Source: a virus. From it: a stretch of 27,043 nt of DNA. The translations under genes were made by a program, and so were the position numbers. This document shows, in pieces, positions 1,687 through 19,452 of the stretch. The notes below the pieces were generated by a model, which worked only from the letters and a program-made list of their open reading frames with translations, was not told where the DNA came from and ran no database searches. The DNA lies in IMG/VR virus record IMGVR_UViG_3300025671_000412, positions 1 to 27,043 of that record. One strand, given 5' to 3'. Position 1 is the stretch's first letter. The number at the start of each line of letters is the position of its first letter.

Positions 1687-1835
1687 TACTTTTTCTTCTT
1701 TGCTGTTTTTGCAGACTTGCGAAATGCCGCTGCTGTTGGCGCACCCTTCGTTCCGGGCTTCCTCATCTTTTCGCCAGAGCCGGCTTTGATGCGCTTGCGC
1801 TTGGCGTGAATGTTTGCGTAAAGACCTCTAGGCAT
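1686..1835 (-). CDS. 49-residue basic conserved protein
   Basis: This short gene was read from the gap after the lysozyme gene. The product starts MPRGLYANIHAKRKRIKAGS, continues GEKMRKPGTKGAP, and ends KTAKKKK. An AGGAG site lies 8 nt before the ATG, and the start overlaps the lysozyme stop by 8 nt. The GLYANI-x-AKRKRI and GSGEKMRKPG motifs recur in small phage proteins that sit beside the DUF6321-like gene. About a third of residues are Lys or Arg, so nucleic-acid binding is plausible but unproven. The motif match, ribosome site and coupled ends make it a real gene despite its size. Confidence 0.8.
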   Translation of the reverse strand: MPRGLYANIHAKRKRIKAGSGEKMRKPGTKGAPTAAAFRKSAKTAKKKK

Positions 1836-2277
1836 TTTCCATACTCCTGATTCTTTGCACCAGCCTTTCAGCCCGGTTCGTTACCTGATTATACCATCTT
1901 GAATCAACCATTTCATCAGCCATCTTGCCCCAGTCACGCGCCTCCAAGTGACGCTTCATAGAGACAAACTTTGACAGCCGGGGTCTGCCCAGGTTGAACA
2001 TCATGTTGGCCAACACAAGCTGCACTTCTTCGGGCAGGTCATTATAATAATCGTTATAATGCTTTCTGCACTCTGACAGCGTTACCTCAATGTCCTGCTC
2101 AAACACCTCCTGCACACGCTCCTCTGACACGGGCGTTCCTACCGGCTGGCCGTGTTCCGGGTCATCCTTTGTTACCAGGTGGCCAATGCCAAAGGTTGGT
2201 AGGCCAAGATGGTCAAGGTAAATCTCATACTTGCAGCCCTCGTCTGCTTCCAATTCCTTGCGTAGCTGGTCAATCAT
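1828..2277 (-). CDS. T4-type lysozyme (GH24 endolysin)
   Basis: This 149-residue muramidase cleaves the MurNAc-GlcNAc bonds of peptidoglycan at the end of infection. The catalytic set matches T4 lysozyme: E13 in ADEG, D22 in YLDHLG and T28 in PTFGIGH. The C-terminal half has the usual family helices (VLANMMFNLG and the NRAERLVQRI end). There is no signal peptide, so release depends on a holin. The length is a little under T4 lysozyme (164 aa). An AGGA site lies 8 nt before the ATG, and the start overlaps the upstream 3TM holin stop by 4 nt (ATGA), which ties holin and endolysin expression together. Confidence 0.93.
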   Translation of the reverse strand: MIDQLRKELEADEGCKYEIYLDHLGLPTFGIGHLVTKDDPEHGQPVGTPVSEERVQEVFEQDIEVTLSECRKHYNDYYNDLPEEVQLVLANMMFNLGRPRLSKFVSMKRHLEARDWGKMADEMVDSRWYNQVTNRAERLVQRIRSMENA

Positions 2278-2651
2278 TTCTTCAGTCCTTTAATACCGCG
2301 CAGTCCAAAGCTGGCTGCTATTGAGGCATACATCGCCCACTGGAACCAATCAGGTGTAGTCTCCAGCGCAGCAAAGCCACGCTCTACATAGGGCTGTAAG
2401 GGTGGGATGAAGCACATTGCAATGATTATAATGAACAGAATAGTCCACGCCTCATCTTTCCAGCTGTCACCGGAAGCCTGGGCCATAATCTTTTCCCAGC
2501 CCGCTTCATGTGTAGCCGCAACTTTCATCACCTCGGCTTCGGCTTCTGCCTTGGCTACCTTTGCCTTGGTTTCTGCCGCTGCCTTCTCTGCTTTGCCCTT
2601 CAGCCAGCCACCGGCCAGTTCTGCAACAGCTGGTATTAACGCTTGAATCAT
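2274..2651 (-). CDS. Holin of the GTA 3TM type
   Basis: This 125-residue membrane protein has a small hydrophobic N-terminus (LIPAVAELAGGWLKG), an Ala/Lys/Glu-rich helical stretch (about 18-48), a strong membrane segment WTILFIIIIAMCFIPP (about 69-84) and a third one near WAMYASIAASFGLRG at the C-terminus. This layout is that of the GTA_holin_3TM family of phages and gene transfer agents. It probably forms the inner-membrane hole that lets the cytoplasmic lysozyme reach the wall. It sits directly before the lysozyme gene with a 4-nt overlap, and overlaps the 65-residue membrane protein before it by 4 nt. A GAGG site lies 7 nt before the ATG. Confidence 0.85.
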   Translation of the reverse strand: MIQALIPAVAELAGGWLKGKAEKAAAETKAKVAKAEAEAEVMKVAATHEAGWEKIMAQASGDSWKDEAWTILFIIIIAMCFIPPLQPYVERGFAALETTPDWFQWAMYASIAASFGLRGIKGLKK

Positions 2652-2845
2652 TTTTTCGCCTCACTTCCGAGCCATACAGCAAACGCACCAGTCATTGCGC
2701 CGCTAACAACGCTTACCATCGCGCTCTGTTGTGTTGTGATGTCTTCCAAAGACATGCCCCACTCAACAACGCGAATATACATAACAGTCATAACGAACAT
2801 CATTAAGCGCGGTATGATTTTCCATTCCAAAATCTTTTGACTCAT
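2648..2845 (-). CDS. Small two-helix membrane protein, possible holin or antiholin
   Basis: This 65-residue protein has two predicted membrane helices (IIPRLMMFVMTVMYIRVVEW, and a second around AMVSVVSGAMTGAFAVWLG) separated by a short polar loop MSLEDITTQQ. It overlaps the 3TM holin gene by 4 nt and has a GAGG site 5 nt before its ATG. Size, topology and position suit a second holin or antiholin, or a small lysis-timing protein. The family is not identified with certainty. Confidence 0.7.
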   Translation of the reverse strand: MSQKILEWKIIPRLMMFVMTVMYIRVVEWGMSLEDITTQQSAMVSVVSGAMTGAFAVWLGSEAKK

Positions 2846-2852
2846 GTCTTCC

Positions 2853-3302
2853 TCACAGCTTGCCAGTCATGCCCATATAAAGGAACCAGCCAATAAAGGC
2901 CAAAACACCAAGCCCAACTATTCCAAGCAGGGTCAGTAGCGTTATTTCAATTATTTTCTTCCTGCGTCTTCTTCTTGCTTCTTCAGCCTCCTGCCTTTCC
3001 TTGCGGGCCTTGGCCTGAAACTTCTGCCAATCGTCCCACATCCCCGGCCTACCAGCCCAAACCATCATCTCCCGTAGCTGGTCTTCTTGCTCCTTAATTT
3101 TCTCAAGGGCCATAAACTCCTCAAGGTCTCCGCCCCCGGCAAATGGGCTGCGCTTCTTCTTCTCACCCTTACGGCGTAGTTCTTCCTTCGCACCAACAAA
3201 ATCAGCAATGGCAGAGCCAGCGTTTGCTAAGTCGCGCCCGTTACTAACTGCTTGTTTTATAATGGCAAAAGCCGCGTTTGCTGCGGCCAATTCTGCGAGC
3301 AT
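2853..3302 (-). CDS. C-terminally anchored membrane protein of the lysis region
   Basis: This 149-residue protein has an Ala-rich helical N-terminus (about 1-35), a very charged coiled-coil-like middle (KKKRS, MALEKIKEQEDQLREM, RKERQEAEEARRRRRKK) and one C-terminal membrane helix (IIEITLLTLLGIVGLGVLAF). The WAGRPGMWDDWQ motif lies in the centre. It resembles conserved hypothetical proteins of marine podoviruses. A single anchor with a long charged helix is also the shape of an inner-membrane spanin, but the anchor is at the wrong end, so I do not call it one. Start and upstream stop overlap as TAATG, with GGAG 8 nt before the ATG. Confidence 0.7.
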   Translation of the reverse strand: MLAELAAANAAFAIIKQAVSNGRDLANAGSAIADFVGAKEELRRKGEKKKRSPFAGGGDLEEFMALEKIKEQEDQLREMMVWAGRPGMWDDWQKFQAKARKERQEAEEARRRRRKKIIEITLLTLLGIVGLGVLAFIGWFLYMGMTGKL

Positions 3303-3529
3303 TAGTAAATCTCCACGCTGCCTTTTTGCACATGCTGGGGAACGCAGTAAGCAGTCACCCGGTCACGCGGGTCTATGCCATCCAAACTCCCATAGCTACC
3401 AAACCTTTTTGCCACTTGTGACGCAAAATAATTGCAATCAATGACACTCTCAAAATACATCGTGTTACTGACTTGGCGGCGGTCGTCACCTACGCCCAAA
3501 TAAACCAGCAACAAGAACACATGAATCAT
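3302..3529 (-). CDS. Small secreted or membrane-linked hypothetical protein
   Basis: This 75-residue protein has a short hydrophobic N-terminus (MIHVFLLLVYLGVG), then FESVIDCNYFASQVAKRF, and a second cysteine near the end (AYCVPQH). A hydrophobic leader with two cysteines suggests a small periplasmic protein with a disulphide. It resembles in layout the 74-residue protein encoded at 26707-26931, though sequence identity is low. The ATG follows the TAG of the 56-codon gene with no gap. Function unknown. Confidence 0.6.
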   Translation of the reverse strand: MIHVFLLLVYLGVGDDRRQVSNTMYFESVIDCNYFASQVAKRFGSYGSLDGIDPRDRVTAYCVPQHVQKGSVEIY

Positions 3530-3700
3530 CTACCGCCACAGCTTCTTTACCAGCTTCTTTACGGTTTCTGTTTCATAAAGACGGACAGCCCACCAACACA
3601 AAGCAACTAGGGCAGTAATCTCCGGTATTGCCTCAAAGAACGCACCCACGGTAACGCCCCCGAAAACAAAGTCTGCTGTTGTCTTGGCTTCTTCTGTCAT
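3530..3700 (-). CDS. 56-residue membrane protein, holin-like
   Basis: This short gene was read from the gap between the oxygenase and the 75-residue protein. The product starts MTEEAKTTADFVFGGVTVGA, has a hydrophobic segment FFEAIPEITALVALCWWAV, then RLYETETVKKLVKKLWR at the C-terminus. It has a single membrane helix, a short N-terminus and a basic amphipathic tail, like the small class II/III-type holins of T7-like phages. GGAGGT lies 4 nt before the ATG, and the gene starts 2 nt after the oxygenase stop. With the 3TM holin and the 65-residue protein this makes three holin candidates in one cassette. Confidence 0.75.
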   Translation of the reverse strand: MTEEAKTTADFVFGGVTVGAFFEAIPEITALVALCWWAVRLYETETVKKLVKKLWR

Positions 3701-3702
3701 AG

Positions 3703-4254
3703 CTACCTCCAGCGTGGGCCTTCAAACCAAGCAACAAGACTGACACGCTTGCCCTTGGTCACTGGTGAAACTCGGTGCGTCAGGTAGGACGGGAACACAA
3801 GAACAGTTCCCCTCTTTTTTGCTTCTGCTTGGTCTGGCATCTCTACCTCGTTAAATTCAAAGTCGCCGCCCTCATAGTGTTCCGGGTCACTAAGCTGAAC
3901 AGTCACGGACAGTTTGCGGTCAAAGCCGGTGTCCTGGTTCCAGTGTATGTCATGGTGCCAGTCGTAATGGCCTTCATCCTCTGCATCATACTCTGTATAT
4001 TGAATGTCGCCAACAGGGGTGACATCAAATCCAAAAGCTGAACGGTTTGCTTGCTGCACATAGCCCCACAACAGGCCGTGCAGGTAGGTGTCGTTTGTCA
4101 GCCACTTTACATCTGACCTACGGACAGCCGCGTTCTCTTGGTTGTCAGAAAATATTTTTGCTGGCTCTGACTTGGTTGCCAGGGCCGAAAATATAATCCT
4201 GTCAACAGTGGCTTCGTCTATGCCACCAGACCACATTTGCCAGTTCTGTCTCAT
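3703..4254 (-). CDS. Fe(II)/2-oxoglutarate-dependent oxygenase, prolyl-hydroxylase fold
   Basis: This 183-residue enzyme has the complete iron-binding triad: H100-x-D102 (WHHDIHW) and H160 (YLTHRVSPV). R170 (KGKRVSLVAWF), ten residues after the last histidine, is placed to bind 2-oxoglutarate. Other family marks are YTEYDAEDEGHYDWHHD before the metal site and EHYEGGDFEF in the core strands. Such enzymes couple decarboxylation of 2-oxoglutarate to hydroxylation of a substrate, often a prolyl residue in a protein. There is no signal peptide, so it acts in the host cytoplasm. It lies downstream of the tail fibre genes in the same operon, and its start overlaps the previous stop (TAATG). The substrate is unknown; the collagen-like fibre at 6189-9092 is the obvious candidate. 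Confidence 0.88.
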   Translation of the reverse strand: MRQNWQMWSGGIDEATVDRIIFSALATKSEPAKIFSDNQENAAVRRSDVKWLTNDTYLHGLLWGYVQQANRSAFGFDVTPVGDIQYTEYDAEDEGHYDWHHDIHWNQDTGFDRKLSVTVQLSDPEHYEGGDFEFNEVEMPDQAEAKKRGTVLVFPSYLTHRVSPVTKGKRVSLVAWFEGPRWR

Positions 4255-4601
4255 TACCAGCCAGCCGGGACTTTACCCACGATTGGCGGATTAACCAGAG
4301 CCGCAAGCTGCTCATCCAGCATTGTCTGTAGCTCTGCCTCTGTCTTGTCCAGAGAGGCCAGCACCAGTGCTTTGCACCAGTCCTGCGTCAAATCATTAAA
4401 GGCCGTAAAGTTGTCTGCGTCTGCATCACCAGCTGATGCTGTGCCGTATGCGCTGACAGACAGCGGAACGCCCTCTGCATTGGTTTCTGTTCCACTTACA
4501 GCCGTAAAACGCCAGTGGATTGTCTTGCATACATCCGTCAAATCGCCCTCTGTGGGGGCGGTGTCAAGCTGCGGGAAAGTCCAGTTGTATGTGTTAGCCA
4601 T
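4254..4601 (-). CDS. Conserved phage protein (DUF7936-like)
   Basis: This 115-residue protein begins MANTYNWTFPQLDTAPTEGD and contains DVCKTIHWRFTAVSG, a sequence pattern I associate with a small protein found next to fibre genes in cyanophages and other marine phages. The C-terminus (LDEQLAALVNPPIVGKVPAGW) looks helical and then extended. It is probably a minor virion or fibre-associated protein, but the role is unknown. AGGAG lies 9 nt before the ATG, and it follows the 83-residue gene with a 3-nt gap. Confidence 0.7.
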   Translation of the reverse strand: MANTYNWTFPQLDTAPTEGDLTDVCKTIHWRFTAVSGTETNAEGVPLSVSAYGTASAGDADADNFTAFNDLTQDWCKALVLASLDKTEAELQTMLDEQLAALVNPPIVGKVPAGW

Positions 4602-4604
4602 TGG

Positions 4605-4856
4605 TTAAATCTCCTGTTCGGCCAAATGTGTGTTGTATGCGTCAATAATATCCTGCGTATGCACAGCCGCACAGATGCCCTGCACCTTGCTGTCCTCTGC
4701 GCTGTAGTCATCGCCCGGTGTTACCACATGACGGCTGAAGCTGCGGCTGATTTCTGCGCCGTCACGCTTAATGACTGTGGCAGTGCGAACCTGCACATGA
4801 TTGAAATCGCCAACGACCTCAACCTTGTCTACGATTGTTTCTTCTGTTAGTGCCAT
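4605..4856 (-). CDS. Conserved hypothetical protein paired with the DUF7936-like protein
   Basis: This 83-residue protein starts MALTEETIVDKVEVVGDFNH and contains the beta-rich stretch VQVRTATVIKRDG, then SFSRHVVTPGDDYS. It lies next to the DUF7936-like gene, and the two look like a conserved pair. AGGAG lies 7 nt before the ATG. It is the first gene after the hairpin that follows the third fibre gene. Function unknown; a small structural role is plausible from its position. Confidence 0.65.
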   Translation of the reverse strand: MALTEETIVDKVEVVGDFNHVQVRTATVIKRDGAEISRSFSRHVVTPGDDYSAEDSKVQGICAAVHTQDIIDAYNTHLAEQEI

Positions 4857-4911: not shown

Positions 4912-6188
4912 TTAGGTTGCCGTATACCAAAACGACATTCTTATGTTTGCGGCAGCACTCCATCCTCCTGTAATTAATGTTGTTCCTGAAAAGGCAACTT
5001 GTCCTGCTGCTGTTCCTGTGGTTGTTCCTGTAATAACAGAAAGCCCCATACCACCAATACTATCCGAAGTAAATGGTAGCCCACTAAATCTTGTTGTATC
5101 TGCGGTTGCTGTTGTTGTTCCGCCGCTTGAACTTACAGTTAATAACCCAAAAACAAATCTACCAATTTTTGTATAAGTTCCGGTATAAGTTACTGTTCCT
5201 GATGTGGTTAAACTTATAGGTGTTGGCGTCCAAGTCCCCTCCTCATAGTCATCCAGATGATTAGCCGACCCAGTGCCGCCTAAGTATGCACCGCCGGATA
5301 GGTAGAGGTTAGCAAACCTTGCACCGCTGTGACCTAAGTTAACAGCCGCATCTCTATCTGCGCCTGTGCCGTTGCTGGGGTTTATTCTAGCATTGTCACC
5401 GTCAATCACTAAGCCTGTTGGACTACTATCTGGTGCTGCAATATATAATCTGTCGCCAGACGCTACACCAATACTACCCACAGTGCTGCCGTCTTTGCGG
5501 AACTCTGCAATCGTGCCGTCCGAAGACAGCTTGTTGAAAATTGCATTTGTGCCAGTGGCAGCAGTTTCAATCCAGCCGCTAGGTGCAACATGAAAACCTG
5601 TGCCTGTTGTGCTGTTGTTGTATAAAGCTGTATCAGTCGTCCCCACCAGTAAGTTTCCGCTTGCATCAAGGCGGAGGCGTTCTGAGCCGTCAACACGAAA
5701 CTGTATAGTTGACGCAGTGCCTGTGTTTGCCTCATCAGAAGCAATAATTAAATCATCATAACCCGTAATGCCAATAAAGTTATTCTGTAAGTTTCCGCTG
5801 TCACCATCAAATCTAATTTTGGATGTTCCACTAGCTCCGACCAAATTAATCTGCTCGCTAGGCGAACTCGTCCCGATGCCCACATTGCCGCCATCTTTAA
5901 TGACCATATGTGCGCCAACACCGCCCTCAACAAACCGCAATGCGTTGCCTCCAGTGTCATACTGGATGCTGAACTCATCCACGCCACCATCGCTAAACTG
6001 CAATTCTGGAACGCCAGCAGTTGAATTGATTTCTAAGATTGGCGATGAACCAGAAATTTCAAGCAGATTGCCGGGAGCAGCATTGCCAATGCCTACCCGG
6101 TTATTCGTGCTGTCAACATACAGCGTGTTTGTGTCCACAGTCAGGTCGTTGGCAAAAGTTCCGTCAGCTAAATCTCTTGCTCTAGTCA

Positions 6189-6189
<1 letters not shown>
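4912..6189 (-). CDS. Tail fibre protein 3, without adaptor domain
   Basis: This 425-residue, Gly/Ser/Thr/Asn-rich beta-structured protein has fibre repeats of the type [18 protein letters not shown] and RLDASGNLLVGTT (residues 15-185). A distinct C-terminal part (about 310-425) begins NHLDDYEEGTWTPT, a motif common at the start of terminal fibre domains. It lacks the T7-type N-terminal adaptor seen in the two upstream fibres. It starts in a region matching the module [18 protein letters not shown], which is also present inside fibre 2. It therefore may attach to fibre 2 rather than to the tail, or be a duplicated distal segment. Its ATG overlaps the fibre 2 stop (TAATG), with GGAG upstream. 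Confidence 0.8.
6085..6147. repeat. Duplicated fibre module, copy in fibre 3
   Basis: This 63-nt stretch encodes the 21 residues from DLTVDTNTL through RVGIG. It matches 7749-7811 in fibre 2 at roughly 54 of 63 bases (counted by eye), and 20 of 21 residues are identical. It points to a past duplication or recombination between fibre genes. Confidence 0.75.
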
Positions 6190-9095
<2,906 letters not shown>

Positions 9096-9101
9096 CTAAT
9101 C

Positions 9102-10424
9102 CTAAGTCTTGATGATGTAATTCAAAATAAATGTTGGCTGCACAATGTTGTGGGCGGAGCCCGAGCCAGTATTCGCAAGGCTGGCAGTGTGAGGTGTGCT
9201 TAAGCCTTGAGTTGTTCCTGTTTCCGTTATGGTCTCAACATTTGTCGGGGTCGTGTAAGAAAGTCCAGAAGCACTTGTGCCGTTGCTGCCAGTTCCCTGT
9301 ATTCCATAAACGGTCACGCTATTAACTGTGTGCGTGTGCGTTGGCATCTGCGCCGTAGTCAGCGTATGCGTTTCAGAGCCGCCGCTGTCACCCAGCGTGT
9401 CGCCGTTCAGTCCACCAGATTGGTCTGTCAGCCTATTTGCGCTGGCTCCGCCCATGTCGTCCTTGCCAGCAATAACACGGCCCCGCAAGTCCGGCAGATT
9501 AAAGGTGGTGCTGCCATCGCCAGAGCCGTAAGTCGTGCCAATAGCCGTAAACAAGTCCACATAAGTTACACGGCTAACAGCTTGTCCGTAACAAAACAGC
9601 CAGCCAGTAGGTGCGCTGCTGCCAGCATACGGGGTCAGGGAGCCAGTTGGGGTCAGCAATGTCTTTAATGCTTCAGCCACCTTTGCCGCAGTTACCGCAC
9701 CATCAGCAATTTGGTCTGTATTTACAGCGTCATCCGCCAGCTTGGCATTGGTAACTGCGTCATCATCAATGTTTGCTGTAGCCACGGTTGCCTGTGTTGC
9801 CAGTGAGCCAAGGCCCAGCGTGTTACGCATTGTTGCCGCATCTATGTCATCAAGCAAAGTTTCCGCAAAGGCAGATGCAACAACATCGCTGCTTGTCCCA
9901 GCAGTAACAGAAACGCTACCATCGGAGCCAAAAGCTAAGTATTTGTTTGCCCGGTCAACAGAGTTTGGAATAGCCGTATTAGCCGGGTCAGATTCCGGGA
10001 ACACAACAGACCGGTCAACACGCTCGTTAATCTGCTGGGCAATAAATGTCAGCCTGTCCAGCGCGTCCTCGTGGGCCTCTGCCGGGAACGGGTCATTTGG
10101 TGTATAGTCTGTGGTCTGCGTCAAAGGCAGGTCACGCTTCAGCAGAACAGTCTCGCCTGTCTGTGGCCGGTAATCTGTGGTGCTGTAATGTGCATCCGCT
10201 GGATTGCCAGTGTCATACTTGAACAGCACAGTGCCACCAGAGTCATTGTCAATCCCGGTAATCACATAATTGTTGGTGGACTCCTCGGCTTCCGCAGCCG
10301 TTGCATCTGTGCGGATGATGACTTTCAATTCGCTGGCGGCAGTAATCTTGAACCCATAAGTAAACTCGTGGGTGGAACCATCGCCGGAGTAGCTATTTTT
10401 TGTGGTCGTTGAACTAACAGTCAT
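9102..10424 (-). CDS. Tail fibre protein 1 with collar domain
   Basis: This 440-residue protein shares the T7-type adaptor (residues 1 to about 150, with [18 protein letters not shown]) with fibre 2. A helical linker follows (DDAVTNAKLADDAVNTDQIA, repeated short helices). The phage tail collar domain is at about 265-340 (PYAGSSAPTGWLFCYGQAVS, then TTFNLPDLRGRVIAGKD), and the histidine-rich end has THTLTTAQMPTHTHTV, HTASL and a distal VQPTFILNYIIKT. The HTHT motifs in such tips commonly bind metal. It is likely a short tail fibre or tail tip fibre that binds host surface. AAGGAG lies 6 nt before the ATG. Confidence 0.88.
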   Translation of the reverse strand: MTVSSTTTKNSYSGDGSTHEFTYGFKITAASELKVIIRTDATAAEAEESTNNYVITGIDNDSGGTVLFKYDTGNPADAHYSTTDYRPQTGETVLLKRDLPLTQTTDYTPNDPFPAEAHEDALDRLTFIAQQINERVDRSVVFPESDPANTAIPNSVDRANKYLAFGSDGSVSVTAGTSSDVVASAFAETLLDDIDAATMRNTLGLGSLATQATVATANIDDDAVTNAKLADDAVNTDQIADGAVTAAKVAEALKTLLTPTGSLTPYAGSSAPTGWLFCYGQAVSRVTYVDLFTAIGTTYGSGDGSTTFNLPDLRGRVIAGKDDMGGASANRLTDQSGGLNGDTLGDSGGSETHTLTTAQMPTHTHTVNSVTVYGIQGTGSNGTSASGLSYTTPTNVETITETGTTQGLSTPHTASLANTGSGSAHNIVQPTFILNYIIKT

Positions 10425-10426
10425 CT

Positions 10427-10441
10427 AAGGCTCCTTGCCTT
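10427..10441 (-). promoter_or_regulatory. Small hairpin presenting the ribosome site of fibre 1
   Basis: In the leftward RNA, AAGGC and GCCTT can form a 5-bp stem around AAGGA, with the AAGGAG ribosome site of fibre 1 spanning loop and stem. It may tune fibre translation. It is short and could be chance. Confidence 0.25.
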
Positions 10442-10478
10442 TTCTTTATACACGATTCCGGGCATCATAAAAAGCCCG

Positions 10479-13400
10479 CTACTGTTCTGTAATCCGTGCT
10501 TGCTCTGGCAATCCCTCAACCATTGTATTCAAAACATTCTTGATTCCGATTGCGTTTTGAAATGGCAGAAGCGAATTAAGTGCGCGTTGTTGGCCGCGAG
10601 ACCATTGGTATTCTGGGTTTAACAAAGCTCTGCTTCCGCCCTGTATTGTTTTTCCGGTTGTGTCAAGCAAGTCAAAAACCGGGTTTCCAGCTATAAAGCT
10701 GGTGGCAAGGCCGGTTGAGCGTTTATAAGCAAATATTGGCTCTTGGCCTGTTGCCCACATAACTGTGTCAAATCCGCCCGGAAGAAGTGCCGCCCAAGAA
10801 CTCCGCACAAATGCTGCTTTTCCTATTTCTTCAACAGAAAGGCGTTCGTTCAAAAACTTTTGTTTGTCGTCCCGACCAATCGCATTTACATGAGTTTGCA
10901 AAACATACGCAGTAGCACCATAGAAGGTTGACCACATCATAGCTTGGTAGGCAGCAAAGTCATTTCTTTTGATGTTGTGCAAAAATTGTTTGGAATGGGA
11001 CACAAGCATGAACGCACGGAATTGCGTAAGTATTTTGCCCATTGTGCTTGTCATGTGAATATTCAGATTGCCGACATCATTTTGCTGGATGCTTTGTCTT
11101 GTCCACCGAGCTATTGCATAAGAAAAAGCATCCCTTGCTTCTATGTCAGTCCATGCCTCCATATTTATAGACCTAACCTTCCGGCTGCGAGAAAACATAG
11201 ATGGATTGGTTACTGTGTTCTGCTTAATCATTGTGACCACACGGGGCCACATTTCTTCATCCAACCCCAAGTTAGCCAAACGAGACTTGATGTCTTGCTC
11301 AAGCGTTGTATTGCCAAGCTTTTTCATTCTGGTTTTTTTAAGTCCAGAAGCCAGGTCAACAAGGGACTGAACCGCAACCTTGCCCGCGGTGCGCTCAAAA
11401 ATAACTGTCAGGGGTGCAAGACCAGACAAATCGGCGGTCATGCGTTTTGCCACACTCATTGTGTTGATGGCGCGGTCAATAAAATCACCTTTGCCAAGGC
11501 TGTATAAATCCTCAACGCTATATTTATTCATAGATTGCTGAGTTCTTCTGTCAACGCCAGGCGCAACAAACGCCTCTAAGTCACGCGCAACATCATCCTG
11601 CAAGTCACCATTGGCTGCTCGTTTAATCATGTTTTTCCAGTCAGGCATCACACGAAGCAGGGCCATAGTGCCATCTATTGAAACCGCGTTGCCCAATTCA
11701 GAAATCTGTGCAAATCCAACCTGGTTCATAACCCTTATGAAGTTGTAGTCCATAAGCAAACGCGTGATTCTGTTGAGGTCGCTGGTAGGGTCGCCAATTA
11801 AGGGAGATGGGCGGCCAGAAATCAAAGCATACAACACATCCAGTTTTTGTATGTCTTTTTCTGCCTGCTTGTTGTTACCTATTTCATCACCAGCGGCGCG
11901 AATGTCCTTCTTAATGGCTTCAAAATCACCATCTAAAAATATGCCCTTTTTAGCCAATGCAATTCGGCCCTGCATTTGATTGATGTAGGCATTTACCACC
12001 GCTTCAGTGTCACGCTCCATCAGGTCTTTGATGTGCAAGGTTTTGCCATTTTTCTCTATGGCTGCGCTCATGTCAAAGTTAAGTCTGCGCCGCGCCCTTG
12101 GTGAAACGCCTTCACGCTTAAAATCCAACAAGGAAACAACGCGGTCTATTTCATCTGCGGAAATGTCTTCAAACTCCTCCCTCAAAATGTCACGCAATGC
12201 CTCTTTGTTTGATGTGCTGAATATACGCGCCATTCCAGAGTCAATCCCAACCTGTCTTTGGCGTATTTTTCTGGACATTCTTTTGGCTATTGATTCGGCT
12301 ATGTCATCCGTCATTTGCGGATTGGCATTTAATAGGGAGGTTTTTAACAGACCAATTATTTCTGGCGCACCAAACCCGTTTTTTTGCGCTGTCTCAAACC
12401 TGTAACCATCCCAAAGGTGGCTAAAATATGTCGGATTGTCAGGTATTTCATCAAAGCCTTTTACACCAGCGCGGCGGGCATCTTCCAGCATGTTCTTAAA
12501 TATTTTGCGAACATCATTGGCGGCAGCTATAACATGCGGGTTTGCGGTTGAGCCGGGCAATTCAATTTCATCTGCCACAAGCTGACCAAACTCCGAACGC
12601 CGCTTTTCCATTTTGCGGCCAACCAAGCCAATGCCGCTTTCCTTTGCCCAATTTTCATAGTTCGGGTCGTATGATTTATAAAATGAATTCGTAACAGTTT
12701 TGGTTCCAACTGTTTTCATTAAGTCGGCTGTAATTTCACCCGGATTTACAGCGTCTTCTCCCAACATGTTTGCTACTTTGCGGCTAATTCCAATCGGAGA
12801 GCTTTTGAGTTGGCCAACCATGTCAAAGCGAACCTTGCCAAAATCTGCCATAGGCTCGTAATCAGCTTCGTCAATTTTCTCTTGTATGCCGCGCCTAATC
12901 TCTATGTCCTGTGATGGGCGAGACATTGGGTTTTCCATTGCGCCAACGCCAGTGTCAATGTTTCGGGCCGCCATAGCTTCATTTACATCCGCCACCTGCG
13001 CCTGATTCACATCACGCTGAACCTTGAAAAATGCTTCCTTGTAGCGGTCGGCAGATGTTTTGCCAAAAATGCTTCCAGCCGCGCCGCCAAGAATAAAGCC
13101 ACCACCCGCCGCATACAAAATGTCATACGGGTCTTTCATTGAATTTTGTGAAACTAAGTAGCTTTCAATCGCTGCGGCTGACGCAGAGCTTGCGGTCGCG
13201 CCCCTAAATGCCCTACCAAGTCTGGTCGCCTTTGCTCCCCAAATCGCAGGTGCAGCTACCCCTTCTGTTGCAACAGTGGCCGCAATGGCCGGAACATCCA
13301 AGGTTGCCGCTGCAATCTGCAACCCAATTCCGCCCCAGCCATATTTGGCAAGTGTCTCTTGGTTCTTTAGAGAGTCCAACGCTCTTTCACGGAGCTTTTG

Positions 13401-16629: not shown

Positions 16630-17051
16630 CAGCTTACCCTTGCATACCTATAATAATCGGAGCCATCCAAGCCATACGCTCTCATAACACCTTCCTCATC
16701 AAACCCCATCCACTCCGCAAAGCGAACAGCAACATCATCAACAACACTAACGCTGGCTTGCACACGCCTGATTTTGTTGTCTCTGATTATAGCATCAAGC
16801 CCACGCTTTGAATACCTAGCCACCAACAGCGGTATGTCATACCCACGCGAACCCATCAAAAACCATCCTTCTGCCACACCATGCCACATCAAATGAACGC
16901 CTCCTATGGCAACAATGTGTGGCCCCTGCCAAAGTGCAAAGCCCCGTATGTCTCTGTTCTTAGTAAAGGCAACACGAGCCTCCGGGGTCATTACATAATT
17001 TAACTCAACCTCTAAAATGTCCTGCTCTTGAACAGGCTGCAAGTTAAGCAT
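16629..17051 (-). CDS. T7 gp13-like protein with GNAT acetyltransferase fold
   Basis: This protein of about 140 residues resembles the internal virion protein A (gp13) group, which carries a GNAT-like domain: DIRGFALWQGPHIVAIGGVH corresponds to the beta-strand core, and RRVQASVSVVDDVAVRFAEW then MGFDEEGVMRAYG to the C-terminal GNAT motif (a neighbour-strand plus GF-x-EEG). Whether it still binds acetyl-CoA is unclear, since the usual Q/RxxGxG/A loop is not evident. In T7, gp13 is needed for morphogenesis. It overlaps the tail tubular B stop by 8 nt. A TTG at 17054 lies one codon upstream and is better spaced from the AGGAG, so the start is ambiguous by one residue. Confidence 0.7.
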   Translation of the reverse strand: MLNLQPVQEQDILEVELNYVMTPEARVAFTKNRDIRGFALWQGPHIVAIGGVHLMWHGVAEGWFLMGSRGYDIPLLVARYSKRGLDAIIRDNKIRRVQASVSVVDDVAVRFAEWMGFDEEGVMRAYGLDGSDYYRYARVS

Positions 17052-19452
17052 CAAATGTGTTGCTCCTGCGCATGATTGCCAAAACAGTCATAGGCAAAGG
17101 CTGTGTCTGCCTAACAACAGCCCTTGCATCCGTCTCATAGCTGGATGGGAAAAATATTTCCTTGTCGCCATCAAACATAGGAACAGCCGCGTCCATAGCC
17201 ATGCTGCTGTCACGGAACGGGATGCGGTCAAGGTTGCTGGTGTCAGGCCCAACCTCTGCGCCAACAGTGTCAATAAAACGCACAGTTACGCCATGTATGC
17301 GCTTAATCTTTCCCTGTGAAATGCCATCATCAGCACCGGCCTCAATACGCAAAGTCTCAACAAGGGATGTGTAGGAATAGCCAATATGGACAGTAGATGC
17401 TTCCCGGTCTAGCGTAACCGTTCCACCGCTTACCACCTTGTCTGCGTGAGCCGAGCCATCCGCCAAAATCTGCACAGTCTCACCCTCAAGATGATTAAGG
17501 CCGCTAATGGTGCTTGTTGCTGTGCTGTCGTATGTCAGCCCGGAGTCTACATAAAAGACATCCGAAACATCTGTGCCAAAATAAATTGGCTTCATATAAA
17601 CAATGTGGCGGACAGTTTGGCTGTTAATCGTGCGCTGGACTGACAAGTATACTTGGTCTTCTGCGCCGCTAGGAATAGCCGTAATGCTTTCAACAACGCC
17701 AGTGCCGCCCAGCGGGTGACTATGCCAGCCAATAGTATTGTTTGCTGGGTCATAAGACAGGCCAACAAGAGTGCCATCAGCCCGCACAAACCAAAGCACT
17801 AACTCTGGCTCCTGCTGCCAAATCATGTCGGTCAAGCCACCACGGGCCAAATGTTCTGCCAGAATAGTCAGGTCACGGCCAACAAGCCCGTCTGTGTCCA
17901 AGTCAAAGGTAATTTCCTTTACCTTCTCTTGCCCTTTCTGAATTAAGATGGTGCTGGCCCCAGCCCGCAACGGACGCACATCAGATGAACCGAATGTGGT
18001 TTCGCGCAGCACACTAACATTTGTCGGCGTTACAGGCCCAGTTGTGCCGCCAGACAAAGTAAACTCTGAACTGCTGGTCAACACTTGCAAGAAGCGGCCC
18101 GGAATCATGTGCTTGATGACATTCACTTGGTCGGATGCAATCGTGATGTTGATTGCGCTGTCATCCAGTGTGCCGGGGGTCATGTTTTCAAAGTCGGCGG
18201 TTACTGAACCAAAAATGGTTTGTGGCCGACCCGCTGTTCCAGCAAAGTAAAGACGCTCCTCATAAAACGCCACAGCGCGGGGAAAGCCTTGGTCTCCGTC
18301 AAAAGCACCTAGTGACCATCTTGTATTAGCATTGGCTAAACCAACAGCACTGTCTGGCAGACGCGAGTTGCCATACTGGTCTTCATGCACATCCGCCGTA
18401 ACAACAGTTGCGCTGGTAAATCCGGTAATTCTCACATGACCAAACTCGTCATGCAAGTATTCCCAATCAATAGCACCATAGGTTTCTGTGCCGGAAAGAT
18501 GAACGGGCGCGGTGTTGCCAGATGTTTGGGTGCTGCCTGTTACATTTTTATAAACATGCCCGCCAAAACGAACAGTCGCGTTTGCAGCATAGCTGGTGCT
18601 GGCTGCCCATAAGTCATGCTCAATCTCAAGGATTTCACGGAAGCGAATATAGCGGCCTACATCGTCACTGCTAAACACATCCGCAGAGGCCGTAATAGTT
18701 ATGCCGGTGCCGGTTGCAGCAGAGGCATACATAGTTGTGTCCGTGTCGTTTTCGTCCAGCCAAGGCCCATCAATGAAATTAATGTCAGACAGGGTAAAGC
18801 TGGTGGCTGTAGTGCGGGTCAGCTTTGCGGGGTCGTGGTCTTTATGCGCTAGGTAAAGCACATCAGCAGATTGGACATGATTGATTTCAAATATGTCATC
18901 TATGCTATATGTGGTGGTTACTTCGACAATTTTACCAACAGTGCCACCAGAAACAAAAGCAGAAAAACCAGAACCATCCACACCGCTAAGTTCAAAGGTG
19001 TTAGTAGTAACATTGGCTACAGTAAACTCCCTGTTGTTAATCTCTGTCATACCGGTCACACCGGTAATATATACCCGGTCGCCGTTTGAGTAACCATGCG
19101 ATGTAGCGGTAATAACAACCGGGTTTGCCGCAGTTGCCCCGGTGATGGACTTTGTTGCCTCGGTCAGAATACCGCCATCTTTGAAGAAGCGAATGTAGTT
19201 TGCGCCAAACTCCAGCACATACGCTTGCTCATCGCTGTATTCAAAGTTAATCAGACGAACCTTGCCACCATCTTTTGATGAACCAGCATAGTATGTGCCT
19301 GGTCTGCGCGTAACACCGCCCTGGGGAAAGGCCAGCATATTCTGTAGCGTCTGCGCCCCAGAGTTATACTTTTGCAAATCAATGCGGCCCTCAAGGCGCG
19401 GGGAAAGTTCACCAGCTTGAAAGTTGGTAATGATGGTGGAGACGCGGGCCAT
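17044..19452 (-). CDS. Tail tubular protein B (T7 gp12-like tail nozzle)
   Basis: This 802-residue protein begins MARVSTIITNFQAGELSPRL, then EGRIDLQKYNSGAQTLQNML, then PQGGVTRRPGTYY, the hallmark start of tail nozzle proteins in short-tailed phages. Residues of about 100-165 hold an inserted beta domain (ITATSHGYSNGDRVYITGVT and NREFTVANVTTNTFEL), often annotated as FCCH-like. A central block has AFYEERLYFAGTAGRPQTIF. It forms the distal tail tube below tail tubular protein A. It starts 1 nt after the tubular A stop, with a GAGG site 7 nt before the ATG. Confidence 0.92.
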   Translation of the reverse strand: MARVSTIITNFQAGELSPRLEGRIDLQKYNSGAQTLQNMLAFPQGGVTRRPGTYYAGSSKDGGKVRLINFEYSDEQAYVLEFGANYIRFFKDGGILTEATKSITGATAANPVVITATSHGYSNGDRVYITGVTGMTEINNREFTVANVTTNTFELSGVDGSGFSAFVSGGTVGKIVEVTTTYSIDDIFEINHVQSADVLYLAHKDHDPAKLTRTTATSFTLSDINFIDGPWLDENDTDTTMYASAATGTGITITASADVFSSDDVGRYIRFREILEIEHDLWAASTSYAANATVRFGGHVYKNVTGSTQTSGNTAPVHLSGTETYGAIDWEYLHDEFGHVRITGFTSATVVTADVHEDQYGNSRLPDSAVGLANANTRWSLGAFDGDQGFPRAVAFYEERLYFAGTAGRPQTIFGSVTADFENMTPGTLDDSAINITIASDQVNVIKHMIPGRFLQVLTSSSEFTLSGGTTGPVTPTNVSVLRETTFGSSDVRPLRAGASTILIQKGQEKVKEITFDLDTDGLVGRDLTILAEHLARGGLTDMIWQQEPELVLWFVRADGTLVGLSYDPANNTIGWHSHPLGGTGVVESITAIPSGAEDQVYLSVQRTINSQTVRHIVYMKPIYFGTDVSDVFYVDSGLTYDSTATSTISGLNHLEGETVQILADGSAHADKVVSGGTVTLDREASTVHIGYSYTSLVETLRIEAGADDGISQGKIKRIHGVTVRFIDTVGAEVGPDTSNLDRIPFRDSSMAMDAAVPMFDGDKEIFFPSSYETDARAVVRQTQPLPMTVLAIMRRSNTFDA

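Follow-up and report, generated by a model that had tools for sequence, protein, structure and literature searches.

Which molecule does a phage modify when it encodes a complete oxygenase among its virion and lysis genes? IMG/VR virus record IMGVR_UViG_3300025671_000412, from a marine virus of bacteria, raises this question. Its entire 27,043 bases, probably part of a larger genome, form the window analyzed here. The minus strand of the window (positions 3703–4254) encodes an Fe(II)/2-oxoglutarate (2OG) oxygenase, hereafter OXY, of 183 amino acids with an ATG start, an HxD...H motif and Arg-170. In our view OXY probably acts on the collagen-like tail fibre of the phage itself, with proline as the main but not certain target residue. 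That the fibre collagen is the substrate appears quite likely and, given that substrate, there is a fair probability that proline is the modified residue. From the active-site residues, the predicted fold, gene linkage, and the covariation of enzymes and repeats, we infer the catalysis, the target protein and residue, and the consequence for the fibre.

OXY matches PF13640 at 8.8e-16 (59 bits for a Pfam cut-off of 27), which places it in the Fe(II)/2OG superfamily, and phrog_61 at 5.5e-33, a family that PHROG categorizes as moron/auxiliary metabolic gene (AMG). The first-pass annotation had described a complete enzyme with its metal and cosubstrate residues, and His-100, Asp-102, His-160 and Arg-170 are indeed all present, without a substitution in alignments of 20 and 44 homologues. 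The synonymous (dS) and nonsynonymous (dN) divergences are about 0.14 and 0.018 relative to loci L005 and L006, and about 0.03 and 0.002 relative to L002 and L003. The low dN compared with dS (dN/dS about 0.07–0.14) indicates purifying selection and not decay, in agreement with the first-pass annotation, and the conserved sequence suggests an active enzyme. The start of the gene shares one base (TAATG) with the upstream DUF7936 gene, and the following gene begins 2 bases past its stop codon. The minus-strand run comprises, in order, terminase, portal, capsid, tail, internal protein, fibres, DUF7936, OXY, small genes and lysozyme. The lysozyme gene belongs to the same run, but five small genes separate it from OXY, which is thus near the endolysin gene rather than next to it as first described. 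This operon position suggests late expression.

The fold of OXY, modeled by AlphaFold2 from 44 sequences (mean pLDDT 85, pTM 0.84), points to a protein hydroxylase. The Foldseek search (E 8e-10) is headed by a Pseudomonas putida prolyl 4-hydroxylase (P4H), PiuC, a Shewanella PKHD enzyme and Dictyostelium PHD. With VIA-align, where rows less than 1 Z apart are ties, the viral collagen prolyl hydroxylase (vCPH) of PBCV-1 (5c5t; Z 17.6, 2.7 Å, 164 residues) and the P. putida P4H/EF-Tu complex (4iw3; Z 17.6) share the top place. They are followed by PHD2-type enzymes, an algal P4H and LH3 (Z about 15–17 for PHD2 and LH3), PiuC (15.2) and a mimivirus lysyl hydroxylase (14.7). Prolyl hydroxylases (5c5t, 4iw3, PHD2, 3gze) are therefore among the top rows, with lysyl hydroxylases and PKHD enzymes at most 3 Z behind, and on this predicted fold OXY may be a collagen or peptidyl prolyl hydroxylase. 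Bases are the substrate of some 2OG enzymes of phages, and a nucleic-acid demethylase or base hydroxylase was for this reason considered. The first-pass annotation had argued against such a role from the position of the gene in the operon. A structural match to a nucleic-acid demethylase, which would have overturned the first-pass reading, did not appear: protein hydroxylases dominate the best 50 Foldseek and best 50 VIA-align rows. The operon position and the Pfam matches also speak against base chemistry: a scan to E 0.01 yields only PF13640 and PF13759, and no AlkB-type family. No AlkB chain is among the best 50 matches listed by either program, which is not proof of absence. We regard a nucleic-acid substrate as hardly credible.

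A siderophore or iron-handling role like that of PiuC/YbiX would have in its favour that the best PDB sequence matches of OXY are PKHD hydroxylases including PiuC, with the same catalytic motif. PiuC, YbiX and CciO, described as cellular partners of TonB-dependent iron receptors (PMC12004947, PMC12004943), are however longer, and OXY stays well under the cut-offs of the NCBIfam PKHD models (60/143, 39/180, 38/336 and 33/399 bits versus cut-offs), which argues against membership of the PiuC/YbiX equivalogs. A Pfam scan of 20 window proteins gave no TonB receptor. The PiuC-annotated phage gene is located elsewhere, between uvsY and uvsW, and its family lacks collagen: none was found at 34 informative PiuC-type phage oxygenase loci, nor at any of the 80 overall (a recount by blastp gave 33 informative loci in 19 clusters). 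An iron-related role is thus very improbable.

The proposed substrate is encoded upstream of OXY in the window (6189–9092, minus strand), a protein of 967 amino acids that PHROG assigns to tail fibres. It matches the Pfam families Collagen (1e-16) and Peptidase_S74 (4e-11), an S74 chaperone C-terminus, and its N-terminus weakly resembles that of T7 fibres (Phage_T7_tail, 7e-5, under cut-off). Two collagen stretches are encoded, also on the minus strand. The first (8187–8501) has 35 unbroken Gly-X-Y triplets with 22 prolines in the X position, 1 proline, 27 threonines and no lysine in the Y position. The second (8103–8174) has 8 triplets (X-Pro 7, Y-Pro 0, Y-Thr 5, Y-Lys 0). This makes 43 triplets in total, with X-Pro 29, Y-Pro 1, Y-Thr 32 and Y-Lys 0.

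To what extent does such a collagen accompany OXY in other phages? The best 80 of 309 IMG/VR homologues, picked on OXY alone, were inspected with a collagen filter fixed after a first look at the data: at least 6 unbroken triplets, 70% of them without Gly at X and Y, and some Pro. A same-strand upstream collagen-like gene is present in all 35 OXY loci with at least 4 kb of upstream sequence, corresponding to every one of the 17 clusters formed at 90% identity, and is also visible in 26 of the 45 loci with less. The gap between the two genes is below 2 kb in 60 of 61 measured cases and below 30 bases in 16. In a cyanophage-type set, an in-frame collagen occurs at 9 of 10 loci; the tenth (L312) has the repeat in a broken frame, and its apparent lack of collagen is attributed to this assembly break. 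The neighbour-gene comparison proposed at the outset thus gave a constant collagen-like fibre gene upstream. It also separates the two parts of the earlier suggestion of a virion or host-envelope substrate: the virion part is supported by the collagen-like tail fibre, and the host-envelope part finds no support in the data examined.

Relatives without OXY served as controls. The best matches of the window's portal protein are HTVC010P-type pelagiphages (up to about 56%), and the whole HTVC010P and HTVC024P genomes contain neither an OXY match nor a Pro-bearing collagen. Among 80 relatives retained through a lysis-side gene, three (L004, L022, L026) also belong to the OXY set. The 77 others have no OXY match, and collagen is absent from all 18 whose upstream sequence extends over at least 6.5 kb; L280, outside these 18, has a 6-triplet collagen open reading frame (ORF) and no OXY match. 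The internal virion protein gave 19 loci, 5 of them informative: four lack both OXY and collagen, and one, a second copy of the L016 contig, has both. In total, Pro-bearing collagen is found in 0 of 22 informative OXY-free relatives (18 lysis-side and 4 internal-protein), which represent 21 contigs, L215 and L288 being an identical contig, and 12 clusters. A homologue of one of the window fibres is recognizable in 14 of these 22. Without the Pro requirement, the filter retains 1 of 22 (L236, 9 Pro-free triplets) and 0 of 80 PiuC-type controls, and HTVC010P has a single 6-triplet Pro-free run. Fisher tests of the OXY–collagen linkage, which ignore relatedness, give p values of about 1e-8 to 1e-20. 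On a tree of the lysis-side gene (27 rows), the OXY label needs 5 changes, 3 of them forced by well-supported branches.

A second gene follows OXY in 28 of the 80 OXY loci and in all 10 cyanophage-type loci, either overlapping it by a few bases or 0.6–1.8 kb downstream; it was not found in the window. All five of these genes scanned match Glyco_transf_25 and GT_PLOD (E 2e-43 to 4e-49 for the latter). Four of them also have a C-terminal PF13640 match with an E value of at most 0.01, whereas the fifth, from S-CAM9, has none at that threshold. His-509, Asp-511 and His-556 do not vary among the 8 copies aligned. With these glycosyltransferase and 2OG domains and the HxD...H motif, the gene of the relatives belongs by domain content to the PLOD enzymes. 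In the PDB, the L054 copy matches human LH3 (1.3e-34), two mimivirus proteins (R699 and lysyl hydroxylase) and procollagen galactosyltransferase 1 (COLGALT1). phrog_61, filed as an AMG 2OG oxygenase, spans nearly the entire architecture of this copy. From its sequence, the second enzyme would hydroxylate and glycosylate collagen lysines.

The lysine content of the collagens agrees with this prediction. Of 97 loci examined, 29 were dropped (fewer than 10 triplets or short downstream sequence) and 68, near copies included, were kept. Y-position Lys makes up 15–44% of triplets in 34 of 34 loci with the second enzyme, versus none of 34 above 2% in loci without it. After removal of repeats (25 versus 32 collagens), the ranges do not overlap. 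A search started from the second enzyme gave 80 loci, 15 already in the set. All 65 loci with 2 kb of upstream sequence have OXY before the second enzyme, and of the 31 that extend 5 kb upstream, 30 have a collagen there. The 31st, L455, was missed by the filter because its collagen is Pro-free. The L455 fibre (1733–3970) contains 148 Gly-X-Y triplets, 33% with Y-Lys, and adjoins an intact OXY and a lysyl enzyme gene. Exceptions to a strict lysine rule were also met: the GPT-pattern loci L135 (a partial hit of 194 amino acids) and L158 (where the 2OG gene is itself the hit) have weak lysyl-enzyme model hits without a strong OXY, and their Y-Lys is 0. Moreover, 8 of 93 collagens free of both OXY and PLOD have at least 10% Y-Lys. 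The second enzyme is present in the cultured-phage records S-CAM9, S-PRM1, S-8S53, S-8S55, S-8S56 and CRP-6 and in the single-cell record AG-345-L05. In four annotated phage records it is labeled hypothetical protein (L082 10555–12399 and counterparts in L306, L475 and L476).

Which residue would then be left for OXY? The enzyme is kept where collagen Lys is at most 2%, in the window and 33 other loci, and lysine is thus not a likely target there. Since the window collagen has no Lys, the X-position proline is the likeliest target here. The median X-Pro fraction is 0.69 in collagens with OXY and no lysyl enzyme (n=32), versus 0.42 in OXY-free collagens (n=93) that had been chosen for Gly-Pro-Thr (GPT) repeats. 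The Roseobacter phage CRP-6 has a collagen with Lys in 26 and X-Pro in only 6 of 99 triplets; the lysyl enzyme is present, and the whole 44.9-kb genome has no OXY match at E 0.01. For these reasons the X-position Pro is our preferred target, although OXY may instead act on Thr or some other residue.

In the mechanism we propose, OXY would be a small 2OG/Fe(II) protein hydroxylase that acts inside the infected cell, either before the fibre trimerizes or while it does so. The X-position prolines of the Gly-Pro-Thr repeats would be converted to hydroxyproline, and this could stabilize or rigidify the triple helix. Gly-Hyp-Thr chemistry as in Riftia is a possible analogue, which we do not use as evidence. 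In relatives with Gly-X-Lys repeats, a single chain combining galactosyltransferase-like, PLOD glucosyltransferase-like and lysyl hydroxylase-like parts would modify the lysines. We lean, though only slightly, towards the broader proposal that marine phages own a self-contained collagen maturation system, in which a prolyl hydroxylase serves the Gly-Pro-Thr repeats, a single-chain lysyl hydroxylase/galactosyl-/glucosyltransferase serves the Gly-X-Lys repeats, and each enzyme is largely kept where its target residue is present. If this is true, the tail fibres of these phages would be hydroxylated triple helices, glycosylated as well where Lys is present.

Several observations weigh against a prolyl hydroxylase of the fibre collagen. 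The nearest solved structures by sequence are the PKHD/PiuC enzymes and not P4H. Eight of the 22 OXY-free relatives show no fibre homologue and are thus weaker controls. Only 10 of 120 loci with GPT-pattern collagen have an OXY match, and only 5 of the 49 with 2.5 kb downstream, which means that the collagen does not require OXY. Some of the OXY-positive GPT loci overlap the OXY set (L018/L090, L081/L099 and, from their equal length and position, probably L028/L200). The idea that any viral collagen implies OXY was rejected on the same 10 of 120 loci. An E. coli prophage collagen is reported to be stable without hydroxylation (PMC3368898). Hardly any window triplet (1 of 43) has a proline in the Y position, where collagen P4H classically acts, so the reaction would differ from the animal one. 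The main counter-example is L455, with Pro in 0 of 148 triplets and yet an intact OXY. In addition, Thr occupies the Y position in all 82 distinct linked collagens (minimum 0.15). The last two observations would fit an OXY that acts on the fibre but elsewhere, on Y-position Thr or on a residue outside the collagen stretch. We consider this unlikely in view of the X-Pro enrichment where OXY occurs without the lysyl enzyme, the lack of an OXY match in Pro-poor CRP-6, and fold neighbours that are mostly prolyl and lysyl hydroxylases.

A further point of this kind is that 7 of 8 homologues on bacterial contigs have no collagen nearby; the eighth (L322, Erythrobacter) has an adjoining one. OXY could hydroxylate a host protein such as EF-Tu as a host-takeover gene, its fibre neighbourhood being chance or a cargo site. 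These collagen-free homologues, the P. putida P4H–EF-Tu complex, which shares first place among the structural matches, and the PHROG category would be in line with such a function. However, a chance neighbourhood is difficult to reconcile with the 35 of 35 linkage and the lack of Pro-bearing collagen in the 22 OXY-free relatives. In a 56-row tree with midpoint root, collagen-linked OXY proteins form a 45-row group (support 94/82, just below the strict mark). Five of the homologues, on contigs of SAR116, other Alphaproteobacteria and Myxococcota, constitute one clade (100/99) inside this phage group. They have chromosome-like neighbours, no nearby collagen and 47–51% identity (L323 and L324, both 10001–10543; L325 3377–3919; L326 6587–7129; L327 4297–4839). 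This nesting suggests transfer from phage to host with a new role in cells, and the five copies have apparently been domesticated later. A host-protein substrate for OXY itself is, if anything, slightly less likely than another site on the fibre. Distant phage oxygenases without collagen fall outside the 45-row group, as do the weakly related collagen-side L141 and L158. Distant relatives of OXY in P-SSM7, HTVC008M, HTVC023P, AG-345-E15 and a 735-kb phage have no Pro-bearing collagen in the stretch examined.

OXY modification of the fibre collagen would be most likely the phage version of an enzyme kind known from eukaryotic viruses and animals. Like OXY, vCPH of PBCV-1 is a viral 2OG enzyme, but of a eukaryotic virus and with 19% aligned identity, and OXY would target X-Pro instead of Y-Pro. 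Mimivirus L230 and R699, for which activity towards collagen of viral or animal origin is reported (PMC9614988, PMC9546862), and human LH3/COLGALT1 have their domain set in common with the second enzyme. In the phages, however, the GT25, GT_PLOD and lysyl-hydroxylase-like domains are in one chain, encoded beside the tail fibre. Bacillus anthracis has a P4H and the spore collagen BclA, thus a hydroxylase and collagen-like proteins together in one prokaryote, although neither phage nor tail fibre is involved; according to a review, this P4H acts on synthetic PPG peptides at X and Y Pro, with Y favoured (PMC8968730). Bacteria and viruses are described by Ghosh et al. as lacking prolyl hydroxylases for the Y-position Pro of collagen (PMC3368898). 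A Baltic virome study noted viral P4H and collagen tail fibres and stated that the use of the viral P4H "remains cryptic" (PMC9301287). Among the matches listed in the open-access literature, we found no report of a phage collagen hydroxylase. The present proposal gives one phage family of AMG-filed oxygenases a concrete and testable virion substrate. Cultured phages S-CAM9, S-PRM1 and S-8S56 carry the whole set, and CRP-6 part of it (collagen and lysyl enzyme), so that the question is directly testable. Confirmation would add phages to the users of collagen-modifying enzymes, and might supply enzymes for recombinant collagen.

Other genes of the window surround this pair on the minus strand. 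Between the fibres and OXY are the DUF7936 protein gene (4254–4601, PF25590 at 6.7e-20), whose position suggests an association with the fibre, and a phrog_6228 gene (4605–4856, 2.3e-27). A second fibre-like protein of 425 amino acids is encoded at 4912–6189 (phrog_18345 tail fibre, 1.9e-10), and a collar-domain tail fibre at 9102–10424 (PF07484, 5e-24). By blastp, residues 1–165 of the latter resemble the N-terminal domain of the relatives' collagen fibres. Immediately 3' of OXY, the ORF list has a 56-amino-acid gene (3530–3700) conserved in close relatives, and further along the run is the endolysin, a phage lysozyme (1828–2277, PF00959 at 2.3e-11). In L028 and, with a weak match, in L041, the gene preceding OXY hits a family of phage tail assembly chaperones. 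An additional 2OG oxygenase adjoins OXY in S-CAM9 (L082 9393–10004) and in L133 (1748–2320, minus strand). At L314 (9273–10004), cytidylyltransferase-like and mannose-6-phosphate isomerase C-terminal domains are fused in a gene adjoining the collagen cassette, a hint of additional fibre sugars. Finally, a tail protein of the window (17044–19452) matches the ubiquitin-activating enzyme E1 FCCH domain at 2e-11, which probably reflects a common small beta fold.
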